In this document: in pieces, positions 46,472-64,000 of the stretch
How positions within the stretch are numbered: the first letter of the stretch is position 1
How the letters are laid out: each line of letters begins with the position of its first letter
Assembly (NCBI GenBank): GCA_017516745.1
Contig: JAFXBF010000016.1
Span: forward strand, 1 to 64,000
From: Clostridia bacterium
GTDB taxonomy: Bacteria > Bacillota > Clostridia > Oscillospirales > Acutalibacteraceae
Length of the DNA: 64,000 bases
Reading direction: 5' to 3'
Position numbers and translations under genes: made by a program
Notes under the pieces: model-generated
What the model was told of the DNA's origin: nothing
Seen by the model: only the letters and a program-made list of their open reading frames with translations
Databases searched by the model: none

Positions 46472-46933
46472 TTATAAAAGTTCGTTCAGCAGGGCTTCGC
46501 AGCCCTCAACTATATCGGTATATGTCACTTCAAAATTTCCCGTGTACCACGGGTCGGCAACATCGCCGGGTCGGCTTGTGTGATTCATCAGCTTGCTGAT
46601 TTTTTTCTCAGGGTCACCGCCAAGCATACGGTGCATATTGCGCAGATTGTTTTCATCCATACAGATGAGATAATCATAATTTTCATAGTCGCTTTTTGTC
46701 AGCTGTACGGCACGCTTGCCCTCGCAGGAAATACCGTGCTTGGCAAGCACCTTTTTAGCCGGCGGATAGACGGGATTACCGACACCGTTCCATATTTCCT
46801 CCGTGCTCGTGGCACAGGAAGCTATAAGAAATCTGTTTGCAATACCACGCTTTTTAACCATACTTTTAAGTATAAATTCCGCCATGGGACTGCGGCAGAT
46901 ATTGCCGTGGCAGACGAACATTATTTTTATCAT
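46472..46933 (-). CDS. Low-molecular-weight protein tyrosine phosphatase
   Basis: A 153-residue phosphatase. Active-site loop CHGNICRS (Cys8 to Arg14) and the general acid in ADPWYTG. The start at 46933 has an AGAGGT site; an upstream ATG at 46957 would add eight residues (MEDKEVYR) with no such site. It is the last recognisable core gene before the mobile element. Confidence 0.92.
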   Translation of the reverse strand: MIKIMFVCHGNICRSPMAEFILKSMVKKRGIANRFLIASCATSTEEIWNGVGNPVYPPAKKVLAKHGISCEGKRAVQLTKSDYENYDYLICMDENNLRNMHRMLGGDPEKKISKLMNHTSRPGDVADPWYTGNFEVTYTDIVEGCEALLNELL

Positions 46934-47037
46934 CCTATATACCTCTTTATCTTCCACTATATTTAGTGTTTTCAGGCAAACTTAATACAATATATACATT
47001 TATCTCTATACAGCCCTCTGTTCAAGGTGCAGCAATT

Positions 47038-47075
47038 GGTGTAAAAATGGTGTAGTATGGTGTAAATTTGGTGTA
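47038..47075. repeat. Four GGTGTA direct repeats in helical phase
   Basis: GGTGTA occurs at 47038, 47049, 47059 and 47070, spacings 11, 10 and 11 bases, directly downstream of the integrase gene. Short direct repeats on one face of the helix at an element end are typical integrase arm-binding sites. Confidence 0.65.
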
Positions 47076-47096
47076 ATAATTTAAGGTACAAACAGG

Positions 47097-48275
47097 TTAT
47101 TTATTTACAGCAAGCTTAACCACTTCACCCATATCTTTTACCGCATAATCAAGATCATCATCAACGTAATAAGCGAGTGTAGTTGCGATATCAGAATGAC
47201 CCATAACATACTGCAGACTTTTTATATTCATTTTTGCGTATGCCATATTGGTACAAAATGTGTGGCGAAAAACATGCGGGGTGATTTTAGGCAGAACAAC
47301 AGAATGGGTTTCAGCGAATTTTTCTCTGAGTCTTTTTATCGCGTGCTGATAATCAACAGCGGTATGCGGCTGACCGTAGTAATTAAGAAAAATAAATCCT
47401 GAGTATCCGTCTACGATTGTTTCGATTTTAGGGTTATTGCGATCGGCAATAACTCGTTTAAAAGCGTTATATGCTTCAACAGTCATCGGAATCTGACGCA
47501 CAGCGTTTTCGGTTTTAGGCTGATCTACTGCATAGACCCCGCCCTTCTTCTTGTAAAGCTTGTGATCAACATTAATGACGCCGTTTTCAAAATCAATGTC
47601 TTTAAAGGTCAAACCGCAAAATTCGCTGATACGAAGGCCGGTTTCAAGAAGTATAAGACAAGCATCATAATACTTGGAGCCTATTTTATCCCCCTTCAAA
47701 AAATTCATAAACGTTTCCTGTTCATGAGCCTTCAGAGCAGGGATTTTTTCTGCATCATCTTTTATATTTATGGATTTGAGCTTGAAATCAAAGGGATTTG
47801 CGGAAATAATTCTGTCTTCAACTGCCATTTGAAAAGCAGGCTTGACTACACCACGTATAGTACATATGGTGTTGCGCTTATAGCCTCTGTCGTGAAGAGA
47901 AATAAGCCACGCTTTTGCTTCGGATATTTTCACTGTGCAGATTTTGCGGTTTGCAAAAGGTTCGGTTTTAAGCACATTAATAACAAAATTGTAATTTACC
48001 TTTGTGGAATAAGCGGCATCTCCGGTTAAAGGCAGATACTTGAGAACGAGCTCCATGACAGTCATATTACCTGTCGAATAGCTGATACCCTGAAACATAC
48101 ACTGCTGAATCTTTTTTTCTTCCTCTCTGAGTTCATCAAGAGTTGCGGCGTATATAGTTTTGCGGGTTCCGTTTTCGGTATAGCGATAGTAATACAGACC
48201 GTTATCACTTCTCTGACCCTCGCCTTTTCTCAGCACGGTTCTGTTGGAATCGGTGCGTTTGTTTTTGTTTTTCAT
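47097..48275 (-). CDS. int: Tyrosine site-specific integrase
   Basis: About 392 residues of the Tn916/lambda-type recombinase family. An N-terminal arm-binding domain (LYYYRYTENGTRKTIYAATL, about 28-47), a SAM-like core-binding domain, and a catalytic domain with Arg in TGLRISEFCGL, the His/Arg pair in HVFRHTF, His in MGHSDIATT and the nucleophile Tyr in LAYYVDD. A TTG codon at 48281 is an alternative start. It ends the element, with the GGTGTA array just beyond. Confidence 0.93.
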   Translation of the reverse strand: MKNKNKRTDSNRTVLRKGEGQRSDNGLYYYRYTENGTRKTIYAATLDELREEEKKIQQCMFQGISYSTGNMTVMELVLKYLPLTGDAAYSTKVNYNFVINVLKTEPFANRKICTVKISEAKAWLISLHDRGYKRNTICTIRGVVKPAFQMAVEDRIISANPFDFKLKSINIKDDAEKIPALKAHEQETFMNFLKGDKIGSKYYDACLILLETGLRISEFCGLTFKDIDFENGVINVDHKLYKKKGGVYAVDQPKTENAVRQIPMTVEAYNAFKRVIADRNNPKIETIVDGYSGFIFLNYYGQPHTAVDYQHAIKRLREKFAETHSVVLPKITPHVFRHTFCTNMAYAKMNIKSLQYVMGHSDIATTLAYYVDDDLDYAVKDMGEVVKLAVNK

Positions 48276-48306
48276 TTTCAAAAAGCTCCTTTGTTTTTTT
48301 GTAAAA

Positions 48307-48361
48307 GAGCCTTGATATGATTGTGTATTATACCATGACGCTTCGTATTATATCAAGGCTC
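48307..48361. promoter_or_regulatory. Long inverted repeat between xis and int
   Basis: GAGCCTTGATA (48307-48317) and TATCAAGGCTC (48351-48361) form an 11-bp stem, 33-base loop. It may be an attenuator or the integrase control site. Confidence 0.5.
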
Positions 48362-48382
48362 ATTTTTAATTTCTATCAGCTG

Positions 48383-48628
48383 TTAAATTGAATATGTTTT
48401 TGAAATAAACTCATCGAGTTCGCGACGTTTTATAAGGCGCTTGCTCTTGTTCCAGAAAACGAAGCTGCAGTCTTCTTTATTCGAAAGAATTCTAAGGGCA
48501 CATATACCTATACCTGAATACTTAGCTGCTTCTTCAAGAGTAAGCAAGGCCTTGTGCCAGATTGGAACACAATCGTTTGATGAAACTGAGATTTCTTCTG
48601 CAACATCATATATATTGTTTTTTTCCAT
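48383..48628 (-). CDS. Excisionase-like DNA-binding protein
   Basis: An 81-residue protein with a winged-helix/excisionase pattern: LLTLEEAAKYSGIGICALR followed by FVFWNKSKRLIKRRELDEFI. It directs the integrase toward excision. Good AAGGAGAAC site and position directly upstream of int. The 328 bases upstream (48629-48956) hold an AAACGC-AA-GCGTTT dyad at 48764-48779 but no gene. Confidence 0.85.
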   Translation of the reverse strand: MEKNNIYDVAEEISVSSNDCVPIWHKALLTLEEAAKYSGIGICALRILSNKEDCSFVFWNKSKRLIKRRELDEFISKTYSI

Positions 48629-48956
48629 TTTTGGAGTTCTCCTTCATTTTATTTTGGCGAGGAGCTGCATTCCTGCCCTATGTTCGGGGGCTTTGTAATC
48701 ATTCTCAGAGTAAATCTCATTTATAAAATACGGACTGACCTGTTATTCCGTTTTCCTCATTTGTAAACGCAAGCGTTTATTTGTGCTTTTAGAGCGTGTA
48801 GGTTTTAAATTGAGGCACGATATCAAAGCACTGAAAAACGCGAAATTTGGCGGCATAGGCCGATTTTTTTGTTCCACAGCAAACATGAACCTGCAAAACA
48901 GATCTATGTGCATATTGATGCTTTAATTGAGTGTTAGATTAGTTTGCTTTTGACAA

Positions 48957-49151
48957 TCACCTCCGTATAGTGCTCAGGTAACGAGCAATGAAAAATAAAT
49001 AATTATCGTTGTGTTGGATTTCGGTTTCTGCACGGTTTATTAATGCGCTTTCAGTATCTGTTGAAAAACTCATAATACTGATAGAGGACGAGATAAGAAG
49101 CGTAAGTGTAATTAAAAAGATTGCGGTTAATCTAAGATTTGTTTTCTTCAT
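48957..49151 (-). CDS. Small membrane or signal-peptide protein in the element
   Basis: A 64-residue protein. The N-terminal half is a single hydrophobic segment (about 7-28, TAIFLITLTLLISSSISIM) and the rest is polar with a small hydrophobic patch near the end. An AGAGAGG site precedes the start. No family recognised; it could be a secreted peptide or a small inner-membrane protein. Confidence 0.5.
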   Translation of the reverse strand: MKKTNLRLTAIFLITLTLLISSSISIMSFSTDTESALINRAETEIQHNDNYLFFIARYLSTIRR

Positions 49152-49181
49152 TAATAAATAATCCTCTCTATGTAAACGCTC

Positions 49182-49613
49182 TTACTCGGCAAGGCTGACT
49201 AACAGGCGATCCTGAGGTGCCGCAACCATAGCAATTGACCAAAGAATCTCTTCGTCAGGCTCGTAATAGGCGATTACAACGCCATTTTCTTTGCCCCGAC
49301 ACAACGGTCGTACAACAATAATTTTACCGGCTTTTGTTTTAGTTTCGATTTGATCTCCATCAAAGTCAACGGGAGCTTCCTCTCCATTCTTTAAAAGCAG
49401 CTGGACGGAAGGCCAGAACTTAGTTACTGCTAAACCGTTTTCGCTTCGTGCTGTATAAAAGAATCTATTACCACCGTCAGCAATAAGGGCGATGCATCTA
49501 CCGCCACTGCCCGGTGCTCCTTCGATAAATCGGATACCTAATCCATCAGGACATGCTTCAACATAATAATTTTTATCCTTGTTTGACTTAAATGTAATGT
49601 GCGATACATTCAT
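49182..49613 (-). CDS. Unknown mobile-element protein
   Basis: A 143-residue, beta-rich, soluble-looking protein without recognisable motifs. It has three Cys (EACPDG, GGRCIAL, PLCRGKENG) and a Gly-rich turn. It starts with a strong AAGGAGA site. It is 30 bases upstream of the small membrane protein gene. Function unknown. Confidence 0.6.
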   Translation of the reverse strand: MNVSHITFKSNKDKNYYVEACPDGLGIRFIEGAPGSGGRCIALIADGGNRFFYTARSENGLAVTKFWPSVQLLLKNGEEAPVDFDGDQIETKTKAGKIIVVRPLCRGKENGVVIAYYEPDEEILWSIAMVAAPQDRLLVSLAE

Positions 49614-49814
49614 TTTAAAATCTCCTTCTGTTTCAATTACGTTTTTATAATTGGTTCTTTAATATGCAAATCAATTTCTAAGGTTCCTTTAACCGATGCA
49701 ACAAATATTTCATAAACACTTCTTCCTTTCACAAATTTTTGAACTACCACTCCAAATTTACAAATTATTAAACACATCGAAATTATATTGTGATATGATA
49801 ATATGGGATAGTAT

Positions 49815-49835
49815 CACAGAAAGTATGTAAGATTG
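49815..49835. repeat. 21-mer direct repeat, element copy 1
   Basis: CACAGAAAGTATGTAAGATTG at 49815-49835 matches 52549-52569 at 19 of 21 positions. The two copies bracket the primase gene and its leader region, suggesting a shared regulatory site. Confidence 0.5.
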
Positions 49836-50053
49836 GAAATAATTTTTGTTTTCTGAATAACAAGTTTTAAAAATCACGAATAATTACCCCATGTTTTTGT
49901 CGGAAGCGAGTGAGATGTTTGATATTACCCCACTGCCCAATCCGACAATGTTGTCGTTGCCGAAAAAGTGTGACAAAATCTGAAAGTTTTTATATTGAAA
50001 AAATTTACGCCCCCAATGTTTCTTTTATAAATATTTTTTCAAGATATAAAATA

Positions 50054-50273
50054 TTTGTCATTTTGTCATAACTTTCCTAATCCCCAAGCAGAATCAAGGT
50101 AAACAACTATGTCAATGTTTGTCATAATTTGCTATTTTCGGTAGTTTTTTGTCATAAACCACCAGTAACTCAATGTCATGAATTTGCAACAACCCAAAGT
50201 TACGTCTATAAACATCAAATACTAAGAATGGAAAACTGACAATTTTAGCTCTGTTACCACTGCTTTGTCATAA
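50054..50273. repeat. TTTGTCATAA iteron-like repeats
   Basis: TTTGTCATAA occurs exactly at 50062, 50118, 50148 and 50264, with a variant at 50054 (TTTGTCATTT) and ATGTCATGA at 50173. All are in the same orientation. Inverted relatives (TGACAAA at 49971 and TGACAATTT at 50237) lie nearby. The region 49614-50297 has no gene and is AT-rich. It lies just downstream of the primase gene, as in a phage-satellite replication origin. Confidence 0.6.
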
Positions 50274-50297
50274 TTCCTTTAGAGGGATTGAGAAGAA

Positions 50298-52466
50298 TTA
50301 ATAAATATTATCGTTGCCATAAACATTGCGAAATTCTTCCTTGGCGGACATTGTAAGTTTAAAACTGTAATAACGGCCATGAGAAACCCTTACGTGAATA
50401 TCTTCGTTTAGATATTCCATAAGTTCTCTCTCAAACTCTTTGGTAGAAAGAACATATCCTTTACAATTCTGTTTACACCATTCAGCGAACACTTTACGAA
50501 TCGCAGTAGCAGTGCAATTATCGTCCTTCTTTATAGAATGGTTTTCTCTATGCGCGCAGCATTCCTTATAGAATGTAATTAAAGGACTGTTATCTGCTTT
50601 ATATTTGCTCAATGTAGTGCTGCACTTTTCCGGAATTTCCAAAACATAGCCCTTATCGAAGGCTTTTTTAAATTCTCTTATTGCTTTATATACAATTCCT
50701 TCTTTTTCATCAAACATTTTGTCGCAAATAAAAGGATCTCTGTCTCTTTCGGGAATTACATTAGGACAATTTACTATGATCATACGGTCGTAGACCCACT
50801 CTCCTCTATCTCCGCCAAAAAGAGGCATCTGATTTGCACAAAACCACAGAAATCCGTTATATGTAGCAGTGAATTTGTCCTGATGCTTTTTTTCAATATC
50901 AATTGCATCTCCGCCGGTGAGCAGCTTAAAGAATTTAAGCTCAGAAACTTTCATATAGCCCATATCATTACAACCGGCGAGCCTTTTGCTATGCAGATTG
51001 GATAGTCCGAATCGTTTTTCTATATCCGATAAATCTAAAGAGGAACAGTTCTCCTGACCAAGTATTCTTTCTACAAGTTTTTTTAGCTGGGTTTTTCCTG
51101 TGTGCCCCTCGCCGATCAAAAACAGAGCTTTTTTAAAACGATAGCCCTTAACGTTCGATAAACATAATCCGATAATCTGCAATAAAAGGCGATATACATC
51201 TTTATCACCATTGGTTAATGTGTTCATAAAACTATCAAATATAGGCGTCGGTGTTTCTTCATTATTCCAGTCTACCGGAAGCTGAATTGTAGATAAATAA
51301 TCGGGAGAATGGTTTTTAAAATCCATAGTAGTGATGTCCAGAATACCATTACGAAAATTGATAATATTTTCGTCTTTATTGAAATCATCAAGAGATATAT
51401 AATCTTTATCTGATCGAAGAATCTCAATAACTTCCCGCACGGTGGACATTTTTAAAATACTCTCGTCATAACAGACAATGTAATCTTTAATTAGAGCTTT
51501 CACACTGTCATCTGACAGAACCTTATATTTTCCATCTTCATAGAAGAAAAATTTGCTTGCCGCTAAATCATCACTTCTGACCAACACATAATCTTCATTG
51601 TGCTTGAATGCCTTAGCGAGCAAAGAAGCATTAACATATTTCTTGTTTCCGTCAGTACGAATATATTCCGGTGTTTTCTTTTTGAAATCATCTGCCGTTT
51701 CAATTGCTTCATCCAAGCGTTTCTGCGCCTCTTCTTGTCCTAACTCCTCAACAATATCTGAAAAATCTCCGCCTTTTTTAAGAGAATTAAGAAGTTTAAT
51801 TGCCGGTATAATTTTTATACTGTTTGCTATCGATAAAATTCCAGAAGCAACATTGTGAGCATGTTTTTCACCTGGTTCATCGTTATCCGAGATGACGATA
51901 ACGTCTTTACCCATAAAAGGAATGTTGTAAATTTCAGGGAGCCATTTAGCTGCTGCACCGTTCGGAGCAGTAGTTGCTGTATACCCCATGGATGTTAAAG
52001 TATCGACATCCTTTTCACCTTCAACAATATAAAATGTCTGAGCGTCCGATGTTAAAAGCTCACGATACTTGTAAAGCGGCACTCTTAATCCATCCAAACC
52101 TACCTTCCAATTACCTTCACTGAACCGATACCAATAGCAATTCTTTCCGCCCTCTGAATTAGTGAAAATCACCTTTTTGGTAATCTGTGTGCCATATTCG
52201 TCAACGTATATGTGTTCACGCTTGGTACAGTCTTTATTGAGAACGGCATATCCCGGACATTTAATGAACAGATCGGATTTACTTAAGCCGACAGCCGCAA
52301 CTATTGCTTCAGGCGAACAGCCGGCATGACAGTGCACGAGGATTTTATTCTCGTTTGAAGAAATACTCAGACTCGAGTGCTTGTCCTCATGCGCAGGACA
52401 CAGTGCTTCATACTGGTTTTCTCCGGTTTTTCTTACGTTTTCGAAATTTTTTAAAAAGCTTTTCAT
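50298..52466 (-). CDS. P4/D5-type primase-helicase
   Basis: A 722-residue replication protein. A CHC2-like zinc finger at the N-terminus (CPAHEDKHSSLSI and CHAGCS), a TOPRIM core (VEGEKDVDTL, VISDNDEPGE, about 130-205), and a D5/SF3-type helicase with Walker A GEGHTGKT in the middle (about 450) and a DNA-binding C-terminal domain. This architecture starts element replication at its own origin. It is the largest gene of the element, starting with an AAGGAG site. Confidence 0.9.
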   Translation of the reverse strand: MKSFLKNFENVRKTGENQYEALCPAHEDKHSSLSISSNENKILVHCHAGCSPEAIVAAVGLSKSDLFIKCPGYAVLNKDCTKREHIYVDEYGTQITKKVIFTNSEGGKNCYWYRFSEGNWKVGLDGLRVPLYKYRELLTSDAQTFYIVEGEKDVDTLTSMGYTATTAPNGAAAKWLPEIYNIPFMGKDVIVISDNDEPGEKHAHNVASGILSIANSIKIIPAIKLLNSLKKGGDFSDIVEELGQEEAQKRLDEAIETADDFKKKTPEYIRTDGNKKYVNASLLAKAFKHNEDYVLVRSDDLAASKFFFYEDGKYKVLSDDSVKALIKDYIVCYDESILKMSTVREVIEILRSDKDYISLDDFNKDENIINFRNGILDITTMDFKNHSPDYLSTIQLPVDWNNEETPTPIFDSFMNTLTNGDKDVYRLLLQIIGLCLSNVKGYRFKKALFLIGEGHTGKTQLKKLVERILGQENCSSLDLSDIEKRFGLSNLHSKRLAGCNDMGYMKVSELKFFKLLTGGDAIDIEKKHQDKFTATYNGFLWFCANQMPLFGGDRGEWVYDRMIIVNCPNVIPERDRDPFICDKMFDEKEGIVYKAIREFKKAFDKGYVLEIPEKCSTTLSKYKADNSPLITFYKECCAHRENHSIKKDDNCTATAIRKVFAEWCKQNCKGYVLSTKEFERELMEYLNEDIHVRVSHGRYYSFKLTMSAKEEFRNVYGNDNIY

Positions 52467-52548
52467 TAAATTTACTCCTTAAATATTATTTGAACCCTTT
52501 TGTGTTGTTCATACTTTGGTAAAATTAGTATGATAAATTTTAAGGTTA

Positions 52549-52569
52549 CACAGAAAATATGTAAGAATG
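52549..52569. repeat. 21-mer direct repeat, element copy 2
   Basis: Partner of 49815-49835. It lies about 83 bases upstream of the primase start, where a promoter or operator would be expected. Confidence 0.5.
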
Positions 52570-52698
52570 AAATGAAAAAACTATTAATAACGCACTTTTT
52601 ACTGCTTTTGTTTGATTTTTGCTGTTTTTCTTGTATTTTACAGCAAAAAATTAATCCCGAAGTGCCAAAAGCAACTCAGGATTTAATAATTTTATATT

Positions 52699-52731
52699 AT
52701 TGTTATTACTATATAGTATAGTAATAACAAT
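52699..52731. repeat. AT-rich perfect inverted repeat
   Basis: 15-bp arms 52699-52713 and 52717-52731 with loop TAG. It lies between the primase leader and the right-hand edge of the element. Confidence 0.6.
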
Positions 52732-52853
52732 AGTTACAAATATAAGTATTAGAAGAATTAATTAAATCGAATTATCATTAACTTATTCGGAAAGTTGCAG
52801 AAAAAAGATAACCAAAACCAAAAGCTAAAAAAACGAAACTTATAGTTATGAAA

Positions 52854-52891
52854 AAAGCGGTACTCAGAAATCACATTCTGAGTACCGCTTT
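52854..52891. terminator. Bidirectional terminator near the element edge
   Basis: Arms 52854-52869 and 52876-52891 form a perfect 16-bp stem with flanking A's and T's. Confidence 0.8.
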
Positions 52892-52996
52892 GCTTGAGTA
52901 TTCTGGTTTGATAAATGAATGAAAACAAAACCGATATAGTGGCTTTCTTCATTTACTTCTGCTTAGAAGCAACTCCAAAATTGATTCTTTTATTTG

Positions 52997-53163
52997 TAAG
53001 TTTTTCAGAAAATCCCCGATACGGATTTCTGAAAAACTTATGGCAGGCAGGATGGGTCAATTCAGCTTTTCAGCAAAAACCGAAAAGCAAATTTCGGCTT
53101 GTTTCAAACCTTATTGTACTGTATAAACCGAAACCTTTCCGTATACGGAATTGACCCATCCTG
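52997..53163. repeat. Hairpin plus 116-bp inverted-repeat-bounded element
   Basis: Arms 52997-53015 and 53023-53040 form an 18-bp stem with one bulge. Seven bases on, a second unit is bounded by perfect 16-bp inverted repeats (53048-53063 and 53148-53163) around about 84 bases. An apparent 79-codon reading frame across both is formed by this repeat DNA. The rest of 52467-53366 contains only regulatory-type palindromes. Confidence 0.65.
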
Positions 53164-56063: not shown

Positions 56064-56186
56064 TTATTATCACCGCTACTGTTTTTTTAATTATCTGCGG
56101 CAAAGCCGCCAAAGGCAACGTTTAGTTATTGACCTTGACGGCTTCACCTTTACGCAGACAAAACAAAAGAAATGTCAGGGTTTAAA

Positions 56187-57020
56187 TTACTTGCTCGGAA
56201 ACAGGGACAGGAAAAAGTTTTTTGTCGATTCAAAAGACTCCTTTATATACTGCCAGATTATTTCCAAAAGTGAAAGTGCAGAGGTGCGGGTTGTTTCGGG
56301 AAGCTCGTTAGTATTTACGTCAAATTCTGCACTTGCGTTTGAGGCGAGCTTTGTCCAGTCACAGGACTTTTTAGTGTACAGGCTCTTATAGCTCCAAACA
56401 GCAATTTCATCAGCCTTTGCTTCAGAATATGCAAAGCAGAATTTTACGTCATTCTTTACTCCTGTAACTGCATCGGCGCTGAATGTTGTAACACCGCTGC
56501 CGACAACGATTCTCTCAAGCCTTGAGCAATATCCAAAGGCGTAGTGACCGATCTCTTTTACCATATTAGGTATTCTGATGCCGCTTATTCTGCCGCACAT
56601 ATAAAACGCATAAGCGTCAATTCTACTTACAGTGTAGCCGTCAAGCGTTTCGGGAATTACGATTTCGTCATAGGGCTTTTCACCGTAATAATTGTAGGCA
56701 ATCGCTGCAGTGCCATCCTCGTTGAGTCTGTAAAGATAGTTGGAATTGTCCTTTGCAACAATATAATTCTTCTTGTTCAGGTAAACCCAATTTACGCCGT
56801 TTTCATCGGTGTAAACGTTTCCGGGAGCATCCCATTTCTTCTCTTCTGCGGCTGTGTCTTTCTGATAAAGGTTGGTTGCAAGAATTCCACCGTTGGCAAG
56901 AACATTTTCTTTCTTCTGCTCGGGCTGGGTGCCTACATCTTCAGCGAATGCGGTAATACCTGCGGTGAACATAAGGATTGTTGCAAGAATAAATGCTGTG
57001 ATTTTTTTACTGAGTTTCAT
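56187..57020 (-). CDS. Exported BspA-like leucine-rich-repeat protein
   Basis: About 277 residues. Signal peptide 1-26 starting at ATG 57020, which has the CGGAGG site, rather than the ATG at 57074. The middle contains LRR_5-type (BspA/TpLRR) units: VIPETLDGYTVSRIDAYAF, IRIPNMVKEIGHYAF, IVVGSGVTTFS. The C-terminus has amphipathic helix IWQYIKESFESTKNFFLSLF. Surface interaction role likely. Confidence 0.8.
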   Translation of the reverse strand: MKLSKKITAFILATILMFTAGITAFAEDVGTQPEQKKENVLANGGILATNLYQKDTAAEEKKWDAPGNVYTDENGVNWVYLNKKNYIVAKDNSNYLYRLNEDGTAAIAYNYYGEKPYDEIVIPETLDGYTVSRIDAYAFYMCGRISGIRIPNMVKEIGHYAFGYCSRLERIVVGSGVTTFSADAVTGVKNDVKFCFAYSEAKADEIAVWSYKSLYTKKSCDWTKLASNASAEFDVNTNELPETTRTSALSLLEIIWQYIKESFESTKNFFLSLFPSK

Positions 57021-57039
57021 TTTTGTAACCTCCGTTTTG

Positions 57040-58300: not shown

Positions 58301-58414
58301 TCAGCAGCCGTAAGCACATTTACGGGCTGCATCCTGACTTGTAAAATATCTTCTGTGTGTACCGTAATCTGCGCACCAACGCTGGAACTTTGCATCAAAA
58401 TAAACACTTACCAT
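58301..58414 (-). CDS. 37-residue Cys-containing small protein with a hairpin-masked ribosome site
   Basis: A small reading frame: MVSVYFDAKFQRWCADYGT with the second half HRRYFTSQDAARKCAYGC. It has three Cys, a Trp and an aromatic core; the pattern W-x4-GT-xx-RYF is reminiscent of small AP2-like beta domains. A clear AAAGGAG site stands before the ATG. That site lies in one arm of a perfect 13-bp hairpin (58415-58427 with 58471-58483), so translation may be controlled by RNA folding. No homolog can be claimed from sequence alone. Confidence 0.55.
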   Translation of the reverse strand: MVSVYFDAKFQRWCADYGTHRRYFTSQDAARKCAYGC

Positions 58415-58483
58415 AATGAAACTCTCCTTTGCTTTTAATAGGCTTTTTGCCGTTCTGCCTGTAAGACGACGGAGAGTTTCATT
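58415..58483 (-). promoter_or_regulatory. Leader hairpin sequestering the ribosome site of the 37-codon gene
   Basis: Arms AATGAAACTCTCC (58415-58427) and GGAGAGTTTCATT (58471-58483) are perfect inverted complements 43 bases apart. In the minus-strand transcript the second arm contains the GGAGAG ribosome site and the following bases up to the start codon. Confidence 0.65.
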
Positions 58484-58554
58484 CGGTTCAAAGTTTTTTA
58501 TTATTTTTTGCTTATGAGGTTAAGCTGCATTAAATTAAGCAACAAATCAGTACA

Positions 58555-60600
58555 TCAATACCACAGAAAACCGAAGAGGATGATATATATTAACCACTGC
58601 CAGAATGTGAATTTTACGGTCACTTCGCAAGTATCTTTAATGGTTTCGCCCTTTTCGGTTTCAACCATTGCTGTGATTGTAGCATTACCCCTGCCGTGTG
58701 TTGTAATGCTGCCGTTTTCATCTATAGTAACAACCTTGGGATTTGATGAGGTATATGTAACAGTCAAATCTTTATCTTTGGTTGCAACGAGAGAAGCTGT
58801 TGATGTATATATAAGCTCCATTGATTTTTGTTCAAATCCGAAATTGCAAATATCAAAATCGCTAAATGATGTTGTCTTGAACACAATGTAACCATTTTCG
58901 ACTTTGCCGTTAAGAACTTCACCTTTCTTTGTTCCGTTTGCGAGAGTAATCCAATGTCTGATTAAAAACTGCTTGTAGCTTTCATATCCCGTAGGAACAG
59001 GGATTCTCACGGTATATTCAGTTGAACTTTCGTTACTCATTACAATATTACCGTTATTGTCTTCAAGGTGAATGTCGTATCTCTTAATAAGAACACCGTC
59101 TTCATCATATTCGGCAATGTTGCTGTTTTCTATATCTTTTTCTTCAGCCTTAAGAACGATGTTATCGTTATTATCGAAATATGTTGAATCATAATTAACC
59201 TTAATACCGTTAGATGATTCTTTCTCTACAACTTCAGGTTCTTCAGGAATTATAGGTTCATCGGGAGGAATCACAGGAACATCGTGGTTTACGTTGTGAT
59301 CACAAATAGTCAAGCCAAGCGGATTTTCGACAATGCTTGTGCAGATAACAGTTGAAAGATTGTCTGTTATATCTGAATATTTGCAATTAGTAGTGTTGAA
59401 ATGGATATACTCCAGGTTTGAACAACCCCAAAAGGATTTGGGTGCTATTTTCTCAACAGATGATGGTATTACTATCGACTTTAACTTTCTGCATCCGTAA
59501 AATGTGGTTTCCCCAGAAGTGATAGTTCCGTTAACGCCAACAGTAGTGATACCTTCCGGAATATTAAATGCTTCAAGATTGATACAATTCAAAAATGCAC
59601 TATTACCTATATAGTCTTTTTCGTTCAGTACTGAAGAAGGAAGTTCAATATTTTTTAATGTTGAACAATGCGCAAAAAAGTATGCTGGGATATGAGTACT
59701 GTTCATTTTAACTGTTTTAACATTACTTCCTGTAAACACACCCGAATTACTTCCGTTAAACATACCTAAATCTACCGACGAAATCCTGCCCTTGATTTCT
59801 ATAGATTCAATACTCGAACCTGAAAAGATTTCGTGTCCTAAGTTTGTTGTACTTTCAGGAATCACCAAGCTGCTAAGTTTCGAACAATTGGCAAAAACTT
59901 TGTCTCCTATATATTCAATAGTGTTAGGAATTGTACACTCTGTAAAGCAACAACCACTAAAAGCCATTGCTCCAATTGTTTTTATACCGTTAGGAATAGA
60001 AACAGGCTCAAGATTTATACAGTTAGCAAATGCGTATTCCCCCACAATATCCTGACTGCTTTTTGCAAAATCAGGCAACTCTATTCTTTCAAGAGTTGAA
60101 CAATAAGCAAACAAGTAACGAGGGATATTTGTGCCAAACATTTTTACTATTGTAACATTACTCCCAGTAAACGGGCCGGGGTTAGTAGAAGATCCTATTC
60201 CATCCCAACCAATTTCCACATTTGAAATACTACCTTGAATTTCAACTTCTGCTATCTGAGCTTTATTAAATATACGATATGATAGTTGGCTTACAGTATC
60301 AGGAATTACAACTTTATAGGATTGACAATCTTCAAAAGCTTTTTCACCGATTTTAACAACCGTGTGTTCAAATTGCCCATCTGACACACTCTCGGGAACT
60401 TCAACAATTTCCGCGCGACCACTGTATTTTGTAATCGTTGCTGATGAATCGTCATTTATAGCAAACGTAAAATCGCCATCGGTATAGTTGGCCGCGCTGG
60501 CTACTAAACAAAAATCGGCAAGGTTTATCAATGGTGCACATCCGAACATAAGCACGATTGCCAAAACGAGAGATAGAGCTTTTTTAAAAGTTTTTTTCAT
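58555..60600 (-). CDS. Exported BspA-like LRR protein with Big_2 domain and C-terminal WQWL anchor
   Basis: A 681-residue surface protein with a signal peptide of about 36 residues. Residues 60-430 hold about 10 to 12 LRR_5 units (for example VIPDTVSQLSYRIFN, CTIPNTIEYIGDKVFA, VIPSSVEKIAPKSFWG). A Pro/Glu spacer (about 450-470) follows, then a conserved outer domain, an Ig-like Big_2 domain (about 598-665) and finally a hydrophobic tail FWQWLIYIILFGFLWY. It starts 20 bases after the stop of the sigma-fusion gene and is the first of the surface proteins in that operon. Confidence 0.88.
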   Translation of the reverse strand: MKKTFKKALSLVLAIVLMFGCAPLINLADFCLVASAANYTDGDFTFAINDDSSATITKYSGRAEIVEVPESVSDGQFEHTVVKIGEKAFEDCQSYKVVIPDTVSQLSYRIFNKAQIAEVEIQGSISNVEIGWDGIGSSTNPGPFTGSNVTIVKMFGTNIPRYLFAYCSTLERIELPDFAKSSQDIVGEYAFANCINLEPVSIPNGIKTIGAMAFSGCCFTECTIPNTIEYIGDKVFANCSKLSSLVIPESTTNLGHEIFSGSSIESIEIKGRISSVDLGMFNGSNSGVFTGSNVKTVKMNSTHIPAYFFAHCSTLKNIELPSSVLNEKDYIGNSAFLNCINLEAFNIPEGITTVGVNGTITSGETTFYGCRKLKSIVIPSSVEKIAPKSFWGCSNLEYIHFNTTNCKYSDITDNLSTVICTSIVENPLGLTICDHNVNHDVPVIPPDEPIIPEEPEVVEKESSNGIKVNYDSTYFDNNDNIVLKAEEKDIENSNIAEYDEDGVLIKRYDIHLEDNNGNIVMSNESSTEYTVRIPVPTGYESYKQFLIRHWITLANGTKKGEVLNGKVENGYIVFKTTSFSDFDICNFGFEQKSMELIYTSTASLVATKDKDLTVTYTSSNPKVVTIDENGSITTHGRGNATITAMVETEKGETIKDTCEVTVKFTFWQWLIYIILFGFLWY

Positions 60601-60620: not shown

Positions 60621-62267
60621 TTAAGATACCATTACTTTGTAATAGTATGTTTTACCTTGTTCTACGCCGGGAGCAGATGAAATAATTTCGCCCTCCTCTA
60701 TGGTGACCAGACCGGTGAAATGCTCTCCGTACTCCGACGTGTGCTTTAATACTTCTGTTTTTAGTGTGTTTGCTGTAATATAACTTCCGGCAGCCACTTC
60801 AATATTGGTAATAGTTTTAAGCAGTTGCCAATCTCCGTTGTAAACACTAATTACAACCGTTGCCGTGCCGACTGTTGCGGGTTGTGTTGTAGTTGGTGCT
60901 TGCGTTGTGGTTTGTTTTGCTGTGGTAGTGGGCTTTGCGGTTGTTTGTGCGGTGGTTGTTGGCTTCGTTGTGGTTACTCTTACTGTAGTTGTGACCGAGC
61001 CGCTTAGACCTCCGCTTGCTGACTGCTTTTTTGTTGCACTTGGTGCAACTGTCGTTTGTTTTTCTGTAGTTGCAGGTTTTGTTGTGCGTTTAACCGTTGT
61101 TGCCTGTGCGGTGGTTTTATTTTGTATAGTTGTTTTAACTGTGTCGGGTGGACCGGTTGATTGCAATACATCGGATTTTGTTGTATTGTCCGTTTTGTTC
61201 AGGGTTACGGTTATGTGCGTTGTACCATTTTCGTTTGAAACAGTTATGATTGAGTTTTTGTATTCAATTGTTGCTTCTGTGCTTCCTTCGGTTGCGATTA
61301 CCTCTATGTTTTCACTTGACAGCTCGGTTGATTGCTCGGTGACAGCAGTAGTTGTTTCTTCTGCACGCTTGTCGTGCGCAACCTTTGCTGCTGTTGCACC
61401 TCCGCCGATTATAACGGCACCTGCGGCAACAATTGCAACTACCTTTGCTGTAACGCCTGTTGCAACCGTAGTTCCTGCAACTGTTGTAGCTGCAGTACTT
61501 GCCGCTGCGGTTGCCACTGCCGTGCCGGCGGTTGCTGTACTCGCAGCTGTCGCCGCTGCCGCAGTGCTTACCGCAGCAGCTTTGACACCTGCAAGTACGC
61601 TCGTATAAGCAGGGCTCGCAGCAAACGATGCCTGAGCAGTTTGGGCAGAGCTTCTGAGTGCCCAAATTATAATGCCAATCGGCGCCGCACTGTAAAGCGA
61701 GGTCACGCCCGCACGCTCAAAGCACCGTTTGAGTTCGTTACGCCCGTGGTACAGTCTCGTTTTGACCGTGCCTTCGGGAATTTCGAGGCATTTGGCAATT
61801 TCGCCAATGCTGTTTTCCTCGTAATACATCATAACGATGCACGCTTTTTTATCTTCGCTAAGCTCATCGAGCGCCTGCATAACGGTTTTTCTGAGGTCTT
61901 CCTTGTCAACGTTTTCTTCAGGTGAGAACGTCATATTCTCGTCTGCTATAACCTCATACGCTTCGTCCTCGTCACATTCAAAAAGCGAGGGCTTTTTCTT
62001 TTTTATATAATCCTTGCTTTTGTTGGCAACTATTCTATTGAACCAACTCACAAAGGTTTCGGGATTTTCAAGTTCATTGATTTTTGCAAGTGCCTTTATG
62101 TAGCTGTCCTGGAGTATATCTTCTGCATCGTCATCGTTCTTGACAAATTCCTTTGCAAGGAAAAAGGCTCTCTTGCTTGTAAGGTGATAAAGCTCCTCGA
62201 AAGCGGAATCATCACCGTTCTGTATCTGAACAACAAGCTCGGCTGTTCTTTTGAAATCAATCTCCAT
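60621..62267 (-). CDS. ECF-type sigma factor fused to a membrane anchor and Thr-rich outer domain, copy 1
   Basis: A 548-residue fusion. Residues 5-90 are sigma region 2 (AFEELYHLTSKRAFFLAKEFV, DILQDSYIKALAKI), 125-180 sigma region 4 (LSEDKKACIVMMYYEE, IPEGTVKTRLYHGR). A conserved hydrophobic piece (SAAPIGIIIWALRSS) at about 192-207, an Ala/Thr-rich stretch, and a membrane helix at about 275-297 follow; then a Thr/Pro-rich outer stalk (300-460) and a small beta-domain end. The start is set at 62267, which has a GGTGG site; the longer frame to 62339 lacks one. It leads directly (20 bases) into the surface-protein operon. A paralog is divergent. Confidence 0.88.
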   Translation of the reverse strand: MEIDFKRTAELVVQIQNGDDSAFEELYHLTSKRAFFLAKEFVKNDDDAEDILQDSYIKALAKINELENPETFVSWFNRIVANKSKDYIKKKKPSLFECDEDEAYEVIADENMTFSPEENVDKEDLRKTVMQALDELSEDKKACIVMMYYEENSIGEIAKCLEIPEGTVKTRLYHGRNELKRCFERAGVTSLYSAAPIGIIIWALRSSAQTAQASFAASPAYTSVLAGVKAAAVSTAAAATAASTATAGTAVATAAASTAATTVAGTTVATGVTAKVVAIVAAGAVIIGGGATAAKVAHDKRAEETTTAVTEQSTELSSENIEVIATEGSTEATIEYKNSIITVSNENGTTHITVTLNKTDNTTKSDVLQSTGPPDTVKTTIQNKTTAQATTVKRTTKPATTEKQTTVAPSATKKQSASGGLSGSVTTTVRVTTTKPTTTAQTTAKPTTTAKQTTTQAPTTTQPATVGTATVVISVYNGDWQLLKTITNIEVAAGSYITANTLKTEVLKHTSEYGEHFTGLVTIEEGEIISSAPGVEQGKTYYYKVMVS

Positions 62268-62339
62268 ATTTTCACCACCGTTTTGTCCTCTCACATGCAT
62301 AAGACGAGCGAAAAACGAAAAGGTTTCATAAATTTGCAA

Positions 62340-62534
62340 AAAAATTTAAAAAATTCAAAAATATTTTTTGCCCGTCTGCTCACCATAGACGAATGAAAAA
62401 GCAAAAGGTTACGCAAAAACAGAAAAATTTATAGAAAATTAATAAATCGCCAATTCGCTCTTTTATATTGAAATAAGAATATTATTTGATATAATTAATA
62501 CATTGATTATTCTACGGAAAGGAACGGACTGCGG
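62340..62534. promoter_or_regulatory. Divergent control region between two sigma-fusion genes
   Basis: About 195 AT-rich bases that must hold the promoters of both sigma-fusion genes. No consensus ECF or sigma-A site is clear enough to name; no further gene is visible. Confidence 0.4.
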
Positions 62535-64000
62535 ATGAATGAGGGCGTTATTGCCTCGCTTGCCGAAAAAGCAAAGCAAGGCGATATGCAGGCGTTTGAA
62601 CAGCTTTATACCGAGTTTTCACCGCTCATGTATTCAATACTGTTTGAAATTACGCACGATGCATACGAAGCGGAAAACCTAACGCAGGACTGTTTCGTTT
62701 CTGCTTTGCAAAGCATACACACACTAAAAGAGCCTGAAAAAGCAAAAAAGTGGCTCACGGCAATTGCCGCCAACCACGGTAGGGACTATTTAAGGAAGAA
62801 AAAGCCTGCTCTGCTCGGCGCAGAGCACGAATACATATTTGATATCAAAGAAGAAGAGGATGTCTCTCTTCTTCCCGAAGCGAGCACGGAGCTTGACGAG
62901 CGAAGCAAAGAGATAAGAGAAATAGTCAACTCCGTATCGGAGGATAAGCGGCTTTGCCTTGTGCTTTTTTATCAGCACGAAATGAGCATAGCCGAAATTT
63001 CCGAAGAGCTCGGCATTTCGGAAAGCGCTGTCAAGACCCGACTTTACAGAGCGAGAGAGGATATAAAGCAAGAGGTTGAAAAGCGGAACAAAAAGGGTAT
63101 GCCGCTGTTTGGTGTTGCTCCCTTGCCGCTTATACTCTTTGCTTTGCGCAAATCATCCGAAGCTGCAAGCGCTTCGTTTGCAGGCAGTGCGGCACAGACG
63201 GCAGCCTTTGCGGCTGTTACTGCAACGGCAAACACAGCGGCAGTTACTGCGGCGGCTTCAACCGCAACTGCTGCAACAGCCACGGGCACGGCAACCGCTT
63301 CGGCTGCAACAGCAACAACGGCAACAGCTGCTGCGACAGGTACGGCGGCAACCGCAGCCGCAACGGGCATATCCGTAAAGGTTATCGCAATAGCGGCGGC
63401 AGGTGCAGTAGCCGTCGGAGGCGGAGCAGTAGGCGCAAAGGTTGTGCACGACAGGCGTGCAGAAGAAACAACTACCGCAATAACCGAAGAATCAACCGAG
63501 CTTGCAAGCGAAAACATAGCCGTTGCCGCTACAGAGCTCGATAGCGAAACTCAAATAACGCTTGAGAATACAACGTTAACTGTTTCAACTTCAAACGGCA
63601 CAACTGTTCTGACGGTGACAACCGCCGGCAAAACAACGGCAGCGAACAGCACCACAAAAGCAGTCACCACAAGTCAGAAAACTACAACCACCACAACCAA
63701 GCCAACGACAACGGCTAAGCCTACGACTACAGCTAAGCCCACCACTACGGCAAAGCCGACTACGACTGCTGCTACAACAGCGGCAACTACAACGAAGCCT
63801 ACAACCACAACCCAGCCGACAACCGCTGCTCCGACCACCACAGCAACTTCACCGGCAACGGTTACGGTTAAGGTTTACAGTGCAGGATCAGGAAGCGAAT
63901 ATAAAACCTATAGTTTAACTTTTGATGCTGGTGTTACACTTACAGGTTCAGATATCGAAACACAGCTTATGAATCAGTACGGCATAGATACTATGGCAGA
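62535..64000 (+). CDS. ECF-type sigma factor fused to a membrane anchor and Thr-rich outer domain, copy 2 (partial)
   Basis: An open frame of at least 488 codons that runs off the window. The start has an AAAGGAA site. Order is the same as in the divergent copy: sigma 2 (AFEQLYTEFSPLMYSILFEI, AENLTQDCFVSAL), sigma 4 (EDKRLCLVLFYQHEMSIAEI, ISESAVKTRLYRAR), hydrophobic GVAPLPLILFALRKS, an Ala/Thr-rich stretch, a membrane helix (VIAIAAAGAVAVGGGAVGAKVV) ending with HDRRAEE, then a Thr/Lys/Pro-rich stalk with KPTTTA repeats and the start of a beta-domain. Sequence is clearly related to copy 1 but diverged. Confidence 0.88.
   Translation, partial: MNEGVIASLAEKAKQGDMQAFEQLYTEFSPLMYSILFEITHDAYEAENLTQDCFVSALQSIHTLKEPEKAKKWLTAIAANHGRDYLRKKKPALLGAEHEYIFDIKEEEDVSLLPEASTELDERSKEIREIVNSVSEDKRLCLVLFYQHEMSIAEISEELGISESAVKTRLYRAREDIKQEVEKRNKKGMPLFGVAPLPLILFALRKSSEAASASFAGSAAQTAAFAAVTATANTAAVTAAASTATAATATGTATASAATATTATAAATGTAATAAATGISVKVIAIAAAGAVAVGGGAVGAKVVHDRRAEETTTAITEESTELASENIAVAATELDSETQITLENTTLTVSTSNGTTVLTVTTAGKTTAANSTTKAVTTSQKTTTTTTKPTTTAKPTTTAKPTTTAKPTTTAATTAATTTKPTTTTQPTTAAPTTTATSPATVTVKVYSAGSGSEYKTYSLTFDAGVTLTGSDIETQLMNQYGIDTMA

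Follow-up and report, generated by a model that had tools for sequence, protein, structure and literature searches.

What regulates a sigma factor, the RNA polymerase part that selects genes for reading, if it carries its own predicted membrane anchor and outer domain? This question is raised by two divergent genes, A and B, at one end of a 64,000-nucleotide stretch of DNA (the window) from a Clostridia bacterium. In both products, sigma regions 2 and 4 are followed by a Leu-Tyr-x-x-Ala-Pro segment, an Ala/Thr-rich spacer, a hydrophobic segment, an HD(K/R)RAEE stretch, a Thr-rich stalk and a small C-terminal beta domain of about 80 residues, hereafter called the tip. Our results showed that this single-chain architecture is real and retained in many relatives, and that the tip reassorts with the sigma head.

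Two adjacent genes encode single-chain sigma factors

The initial annotation of this DNA had described two adjacent genes with the same order of parts. This is borne out, as both are intact single chains (Table 1). They are transcribed divergently across a gap of 267 bp. For gene A we preferred the ATG at 62267, from which the protein begins with MEIDF; a TTG start giving 572 amino acids (aa) is unnecessary. Gene B runs over the window end, with 488 of its 508 aa inside and the remaining 61 bp beyond. Between the two products, the heads are 32% identical (61/188), the membrane and juxtamembrane parts 65% (46/71) and the tips 28% (19/67).

Both products have regions 2 and 4 only, as is the criterion for an extracytoplasmic function (ECF) sigma factor. 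Sigma70_r2 (PF04542) and Sigma70_r4 (PF08281) match above the Pfam cut-off in both, the Pfam scan listed no other sigma region for them, and 63 of 63 family members have the two regions. The NCBIfam model TIGR02937 (sigma70-ECF) is above its cut-off as well; none of the 25 NCBIfam matches listed is an equivalog above its own cut-off. In the AlphaFold model of gene A, the confidence score (predicted local distance difference test, pLDDT) of the head is mostly about 80, lower at residues 91-120, and falls below 50 in the spacer from residue 234 onward. The tip is modelled as beta-beta-alpha-beta-beta (pLDDT 79), and structure comparison finds it weakly similar to beta-grasp domains, including mucin-binding ones. 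The segment behind region 4 is conserved across the family (Gly in 50, Leu in 40, Tyr in 46, Ala in 40 and Pro in 44 of 63 members).

Table 1. Features of the sigma factor pair and its flanks (positions in the window)
Feature	Position	Strand	Basis or remark
Gene A	60621..62267	minus	Single-chain ECF sigma factor with predicted membrane part, 548 aa
Gene A, sigma head, residues 1-190, regions 2 and 4	61698..62267	minus	Pfam PF04542 and PF08281 above cut-off
Gene A, conserved segment after region 4 (LYSAAPIGIIIWALR...), residues 191-217	61617..61697	minus	Family motif; helix in model
Gene A, Ala/Thr-rich spacer, residues 218-275	61443..61616	minus	Sequence
Gene A, predicted membrane helix, residues 276-294	61386..61442	minus	Hydropathy; similar segment in relatives
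Gene A, juxtamembrane segment HDKRAEE..., residues 295-357	61197..61385	minus	Sequence, model; low-confidence beta meander
Gene A, Thr-rich stalk, residues 358-465	60873..61196	minus	Sequence
Gene A, outer domain (tip), residues 466-548	60624..60872	minus	Exchanged part; model, exchange evidence
Gene B	62535..64000 in window, stop at C14:64061	plus	Second single-chain sigma factor, 508 aa
Gene B, predicted membrane helix, residues 283-301	63381..63437	plus	Hydropathy
Gene B, outer domain (tip), cut by window end	63855..64000	plus	Tip profile; comparison with G005
Partner A, LRR_5 + Big_2 protein, 681 aa, tail FWQWLIYIILFGFLWY	58555..60600	minus	Starts 20 bp after gene A
ECF-type promoter element TGAAACCTTTTCGTTTTTCGCTCGTC	62303..62328	minus	Upstream of gene A; pattern match, conserved in G005
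Second element AACCTTTTGCTTTTTCATTCGTC	62388..62410	minus	Same spacing; AACC-N15-CGTC core; conserved in G005
sigA-type promoter-like site	62468..62495	plus	Upstream of gene B; consensus match

The architecture is retained in a broad family

The layout is that of a broad family and not a local oddity. Protein searches returned at least 260 homologs with gene A and at least 242 with gene B (120 listed for each). Among the best 80 of 411 confirmed relatives in named genomes, 68 loci encode longer chains, 65 of them complete. The other 12 stop soon after region 4; these are 11 distant factors of 177-187 aa, 10 of them from Bacillus-type genomes and SigW-like in appearance, and locus L079. Relatives are therefore not consistently split into a soluble sigma factor and a separate membrane protein. 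The divergent pair itself recurs, with heads 95% identical, in a second genome (G005, locus L041), an independent assembly in which the fusion is intact with the same neighbours. This argues against an assembly error joining two genes and supports the initial view of a real architecture rather than a chance fusion. L079 lies in gene A's clade, and its frame (L079:3238-3807) ends at 191 aa, just past region 4; it is either a soluble derivative or a broken copy.

A B-type head stands divergently upstream of an A-type head, 0.3 to 2.2 kb apart, in L041, L042, L046 and L048. These are 4 of the 25 loci inspected, and at several of the remaining ones the flank is too short to judge. According to the recorded sources, 31 of the 68 longer-chain loci are from the guts of goats, sheep, deer or buffalo, and 25 of the 26 nearest are among these. 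Others come from Lachnospiraceae, Erysipelotrichales, Blautia, Pseudobutyrivibrio and rabbit-type ('Lapin') sets. A match at 1e-30 was found in 9 of 39 genomes related to that of the window (its own included). Of 59 genomes sampled across the order, 42 matched at 1e-25, and in only 14 of the 59 did a match lie inside an open frame of at least 400 codons (our own count, based on frame length).

The 63 members also carry LRR_5 (in 12), a zinc ribbon (in 3) and, singly, NlpC/P60, surface immunoglobulin (Ig)-like and other domains. No zf-HC2 or zinc anti-sigma domain is among the 25 families listed, out of 26, for them, and zf-HC2 was not found in the window's own genome (G000) or in genes A and B. 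G000 encodes a third chain of the same kind (C24:14556, 582 aa), which ends in a part resembling BspA-type leucine-rich repeats (LRR) instead of the small beta domain. Another sigma-like protein of this genome (L008:520-2049, 509 aa) has a long C-terminal part of a different kind.

The tip is decoupled from the head

We compared heads and tips in 129 Thr-stalk proteins out of 176 with at least 430 aa, near-copies being retained. Where heads are 90-97% identical (1077 pairs), median tip identity is 35%, and at 40-70% head identity it is no lower (30-35%). Even in the 43 pairs with heads more than 97% identical, the median is 67% and the minimum 23%. The parts between head and tip change far less: in 300 pairs sampled from the 90-97% bin, median identity is 0.84 for the AP segment, 0.86 for the membrane segment and 0.79 for the juxtamembrane part but 0.33 for the tip. 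One head cluster of 56 proteins has 13 tip types; a cluster of 8 has only 2 (sizes 7 and 1).

The gene A lineage (11 sequences with heads 90-100% identical, P0011 lacking a start) has three tip types, each found in at least two proteins. P0005, P0007 and the gene A counterpart of G005 bear three different tips (25-36% identical) on heads 99-100% identical, while P0006 and P0007 share tips 99% identical on heads 94% identical. One tip can thus be shared by different heads, and one head can bear different tips; therefore tip and head reassort. The gene B lineage (68 sequences) repeats this decoupling more mildly, with a median tip identity of 0.54 both at head identities of 0.9-0.97 and at 0.3-0.5, and of 0.94 above 0.97.

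Comparison of the two syntenic genomes places the boundary of the change. By blastn, G005 matches one block, C14:60858-63868 (87%; C14 is the contig of the window), which takes in the heads, membrane parts and stalks of the two genes and stops at the tip boundary in each. Synteny resumes at 65881-68214 (95.5%, starting within the C-terminal part of the protein encoded behind gene B) and at 56075-57037 (90%), and only weaker or shorter pieces match in between. Between the genomes, tip A is 31-35% identical and the adjacent secreted protein 23-30%; for tip B and its neighbour the values are 56% and 63%. In each of the two genomes a tip profile matched the two sigma chains and nothing else, so no stored tip copies were seen.

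Two further similarities were noted at this locus. C14:63355-63523, in gene B, is similar in inverted orientation to part of the G005 gene A counterpart (L031:10131-10299; 77% over 169 bases, in the membrane parts), a possible sign that gene conversion or inversion has occurred between the two. The intergenic stretch 58301-58513 is 83% identical to L031:9282-9496. In G005 it comes directly after gene A, whereas in G000 it comes after partner A, which looks as though partner A had entered between gene A and that stretch.

Secreted leucine-rich repeat partners and candidate promoter elements accompany the pair

Each gene is followed by a gene for an LRR protein with a signal-like N terminus: partner A, and partner B, an LRR_5/Big_2/Big_3 protein of 855 aa that starts 18 bp after gene B. 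Each partner ends in a W-Q-W-x-I tail, whose coding pattern has exactly 2 matches in the 2.9-Mb assembly (97% complete), both in these partners. Among relatives, the next gene encodes a tail protein at 10 of 20 Thr-stalk loci (it is cut by a contig end in 6) versus 0 of 43 others; one further locus ended at its contig, and the loci are non-independent. A same-strand gene with a signal-like start lies within 300 bp after 17 of the 20 Thr-stalk loci and 20 of the 43 others.

The next gene after six short-tailed members, mostly from Erysipelotrichales (L100-L104 and L107, 338-383 aa), encodes a protein of about 1700 aa whose start is signal-like and whose C-terminal end is hydrophobic. We report this as another sigma/partner arrangement.

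Upstream of gene A are two candidate elements that match an AAC-type -35 and a CGTC-type -10 in sequence; judged by match to consensus, gene B has a sigA-like site instead. The first, TGAAACCTTTTCGTTTTTCGCTCGTC, stands 35 bp before the gene A ATG and has 1 match in the window versus 0.28 expected. The pattern AACCTTTY-N11-CGTC has 3 matches in the whole of G000 (reversed control 0), all in one 10-kb stretch, and 2 in G005 (reversed control 1). The third G000 element, at C14:72273 and 10 kb away, lies ahead of the gene for a 293-aa LRR_5 protein whose start is signal-like. This protein is encoded in a gene pair at L030:6370-9704 (C14:68769-72103) whose second gene specifies a 793-aa Lectin_like protein, presumably papain-like in its N-terminal part. 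By blastn and tblastn, this pair has no counterpart at that place in the G005 stretches compared. Across the family, a wider ECF-type pattern precedes 10 of 70 fused genes (0.05 in shuffles), close relatives being among the 10, and a sigA-type site precedes 11 of 70, gene B included (0.42 in shuffles).

A cleavable one-component receptor is the favoured explanation

The initial annotation had reasoned that regulation would need cleavage or a conformational change, and we infer the same. With somewhat better than even confidence, we propose that A and B are one-component surface receptors whose sigma part is freed by cleavage at the membrane, and that they are autoregulated. Head, spacer, hydrophobic segment, stalk and beta domain are seen on one chain, here and widely in relatives. 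The head would lie in the cytoplasm, and the stalk and tip outside. The tip may read the co-encoded secreted LRR partner, or whatever that partner binds. A first cut outside would then be followed by a site-2 protease cut within the small-residue-rich helix, releasing the head; a site-2 protease gene is present in the genome. The Ala/Thr spacer may serve as a tether that halts trimming before region 4, a role we propose because removal by ClpXP, as for RsgI, would destroy the switch of a fused sigma factor. The freed head would recognise, as the matches suggest, AACC-N15-CGTC before gene A and before the LRR/lectin-like pair 10 kb away. As the element precedes gene A, the head would drive its own operon with partner A.

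Two syntenic genomes agree in head, membrane part and stalk but differ in the tip and in the next gene, so strains would retain the switch and change its input. More tentatively, at clearly less than even odds, we suggest a polymorphic receptor. Its head, membrane part and stalk would be fixed and its tip and secreted partner exchanged among strains of gut Clostridia, so that recognition is allelic and the programme constant, as in self/non-self or partner-specific systems.

If this is true, a single chain with an exchangeable tip combines receptor, anchor and transcription factor; it would be a Gram-positive counterpart to cell-surface signalling that works without a separate anti-sigma factor. 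Strains would likely couple different external signals to the same switch, and the modular layout would be a natural template for one-protein sensors. Two testable questions follow: how a tethered sigma factor is kept from engaging RNA polymerase when no anti-sigma domain is recognisable in it, and which selection favours tip exchange among strains.

Several observations count against this proposal. AlphaFold does not model the membrane helix with confidence. The HDKRAEE flank on its C-terminal side is, by eye, as charged as the other flank, so the positive-inside rule leaves the topology undecided. Site-2 protease is universal, being present in 14 of 14 control genomes. Allowing the promoter gap to vary by one base adds a fourth G000 match (on C15) and gives 2 in the reversed control, and the wider promoter pattern was chosen after the sequences had been viewed. 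Likewise, the WQWxI pattern was written only after the tails had been seen. Tip and partner identities are uncorrelated over 19 loci and 171 pairs (Spearman 0.07, p 0.39). The gene that follows gene A in G005 begins only after 291 bp, and its product does not have the tail. Finally, the largest head cluster of the gene B lineage (32) has one tip type under a 60% rule, and the next (20) has three.

Alternative explanations

Because tip and partner identities are uncorrelated, the case for the partner as ligand is built on linkage, on the tail common to both partners and on a single syntenic change. A serious contender, only a little short of an even chance, is that the partner is merely a regulated product, the tip reading some other outside molecule (a glycan, a mucin, a phage or another cell). 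Partner A lies 20 bp behind a gene that is itself preceded by ECF-type elements, as an output would, and the resemblance of the tip to mucin-binding beta-grasp domains, though weak, fits too. This account sits less well with a tail that no other protein of the genome shares with the two sigma partners, and with the joint difference of tip and following gene between G000 and G005.

It is unlikely that the chain stays whole, an outside ligand changing its conformation or clustering so that the membrane-held sigma factor recruits RNA polymerase uncleaved. The Ala/Thr spacer is long and flexible, and no recognised cleavage or zinc anti-sigma domain is among the families listed, both of which would suit such a factor. 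The helix, however, is Ala/Gly-rich, as we would expect of a site-2 substrate. Moreover IutY, according to a 2022 review the sole fused ECF factor in which this activation has been tested, works by proteolysis (PMC8999054).

Fast divergence of the tip through point mutation under diversifying selection, without exchange, is improbable. The tips do form one alignable domain with a few framework positions, and those of gene B differ less. Yet tip identity stays flat across heads 40% to 97% identical, and in the gene A lineage nearly identical heads (99-100%) bear tips only 25-36% identical, and tips 99% identical are found on heads that match each other at 94%.

That the exchange is an assembly artefact, Thr-stalk repeats joining the tails of different genes, is very improbable and already largely refuted. 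Stalk DNA is repetitive, most homologs are metagenome proteins, and such chimeras may occur: P0120, which has a family head and PF00986 (a gyrase-type domain) at its end, is probably one. But the stretch that differs between G000 and G005 has syntenic DNA to its left and right, within contigs of 114 kb, and all three tip types of the gene A lineage recur in at least two proteins. Just as improbable is a soluble one-component sigma factor without a membrane helix, for although the segment, a helix predicted from hydropathy only, is Gly/Ala-rich with a mean Kyte-Doolittle hydropathy of only 2.0-2.2 (2.14 in gene A, 2.01 in gene B) and is left disordered by AlphaFold, the longer chains listed have a comparable segment behind region 4 (a few weak, such as L098 and L108), and it precedes Thr stalks or LRR_5, Ig-like and NlpC/P60 domains, which we take to be usual in secreted proteins.

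Comparison with known systems

Membrane-fused ECF factors are already known. The nearest tested case, IutY (ECF243) of Pseudomonas putida, joins an ECF sigma factor and a membrane regulator on one chain, is activated proteolytically and is freed by Prc and RseP; its C-terminal part is the membrane anti-sigma of a Gram-negative iron cell-surface signalling system, and ECF48, ECF52 and ECF53 are expected to work likewise (PMC8999054). Genes A and B resemble IutY in having a sigma and a predicted membrane part on one chain. The anti-sigma part of IutY is presumably of the FecR type, unlike genes A and B, in which FecR has no match, as it has none among the families listed for the 63 members.

ECF48, ECF52 and ECF53 of Actinobacteria have a C-terminal fusion with a membrane helix and an outside part, which in SCO4117 includes a carbohydrate-binding domain, and are described with a zinc-finger anti-sigma domain (PMC8999054; PMC10766802). 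Genes A and B share the C-terminal extension, with a helix predicted from hydropathy. They differ in phylum and outer domains, and a zinc anti-sigma domain between sigma part and helix was not seen in them, zinc-ribbon models matching 3 of 63 members. Tip exchange is not mentioned for ECF48/52/53 in the excerpts of the literature searched, and within that literature the exchanged tip and the tail partner set the present group apart.

In SigI/RsgI of Clostridium thermocellum, the single-pass RsgI has a divergent outside sensor domain; RseP cuts within its helix, after which the fragment is removed by ClpXP by way of XAA motifs (PMC12203970). There, sigma factor and anchor are two proteins, unlike at our locus, where the next genes encode LRR proteins with signal-like N termini. 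ECF41, ECF42 and CorE have built-in C-terminal regulators in the form of SnoaL_2, TPR or metal-responsive extensions (PMC8103513). Genes A and B similarly carry a regulator-like extension on the sigma chain itself, with different domains. The extensions of ECF41, ECF42 and CorE are soluble.

Genome context

Beside the surface-protein cluster lies an integrated element (window 46472-53000), in which GC content falls to about 0.35. It encodes an integrase with Phage_integrase and Tn916-type DNA-binding domains (47097-48281) and a P4-type primase (50298-52466).

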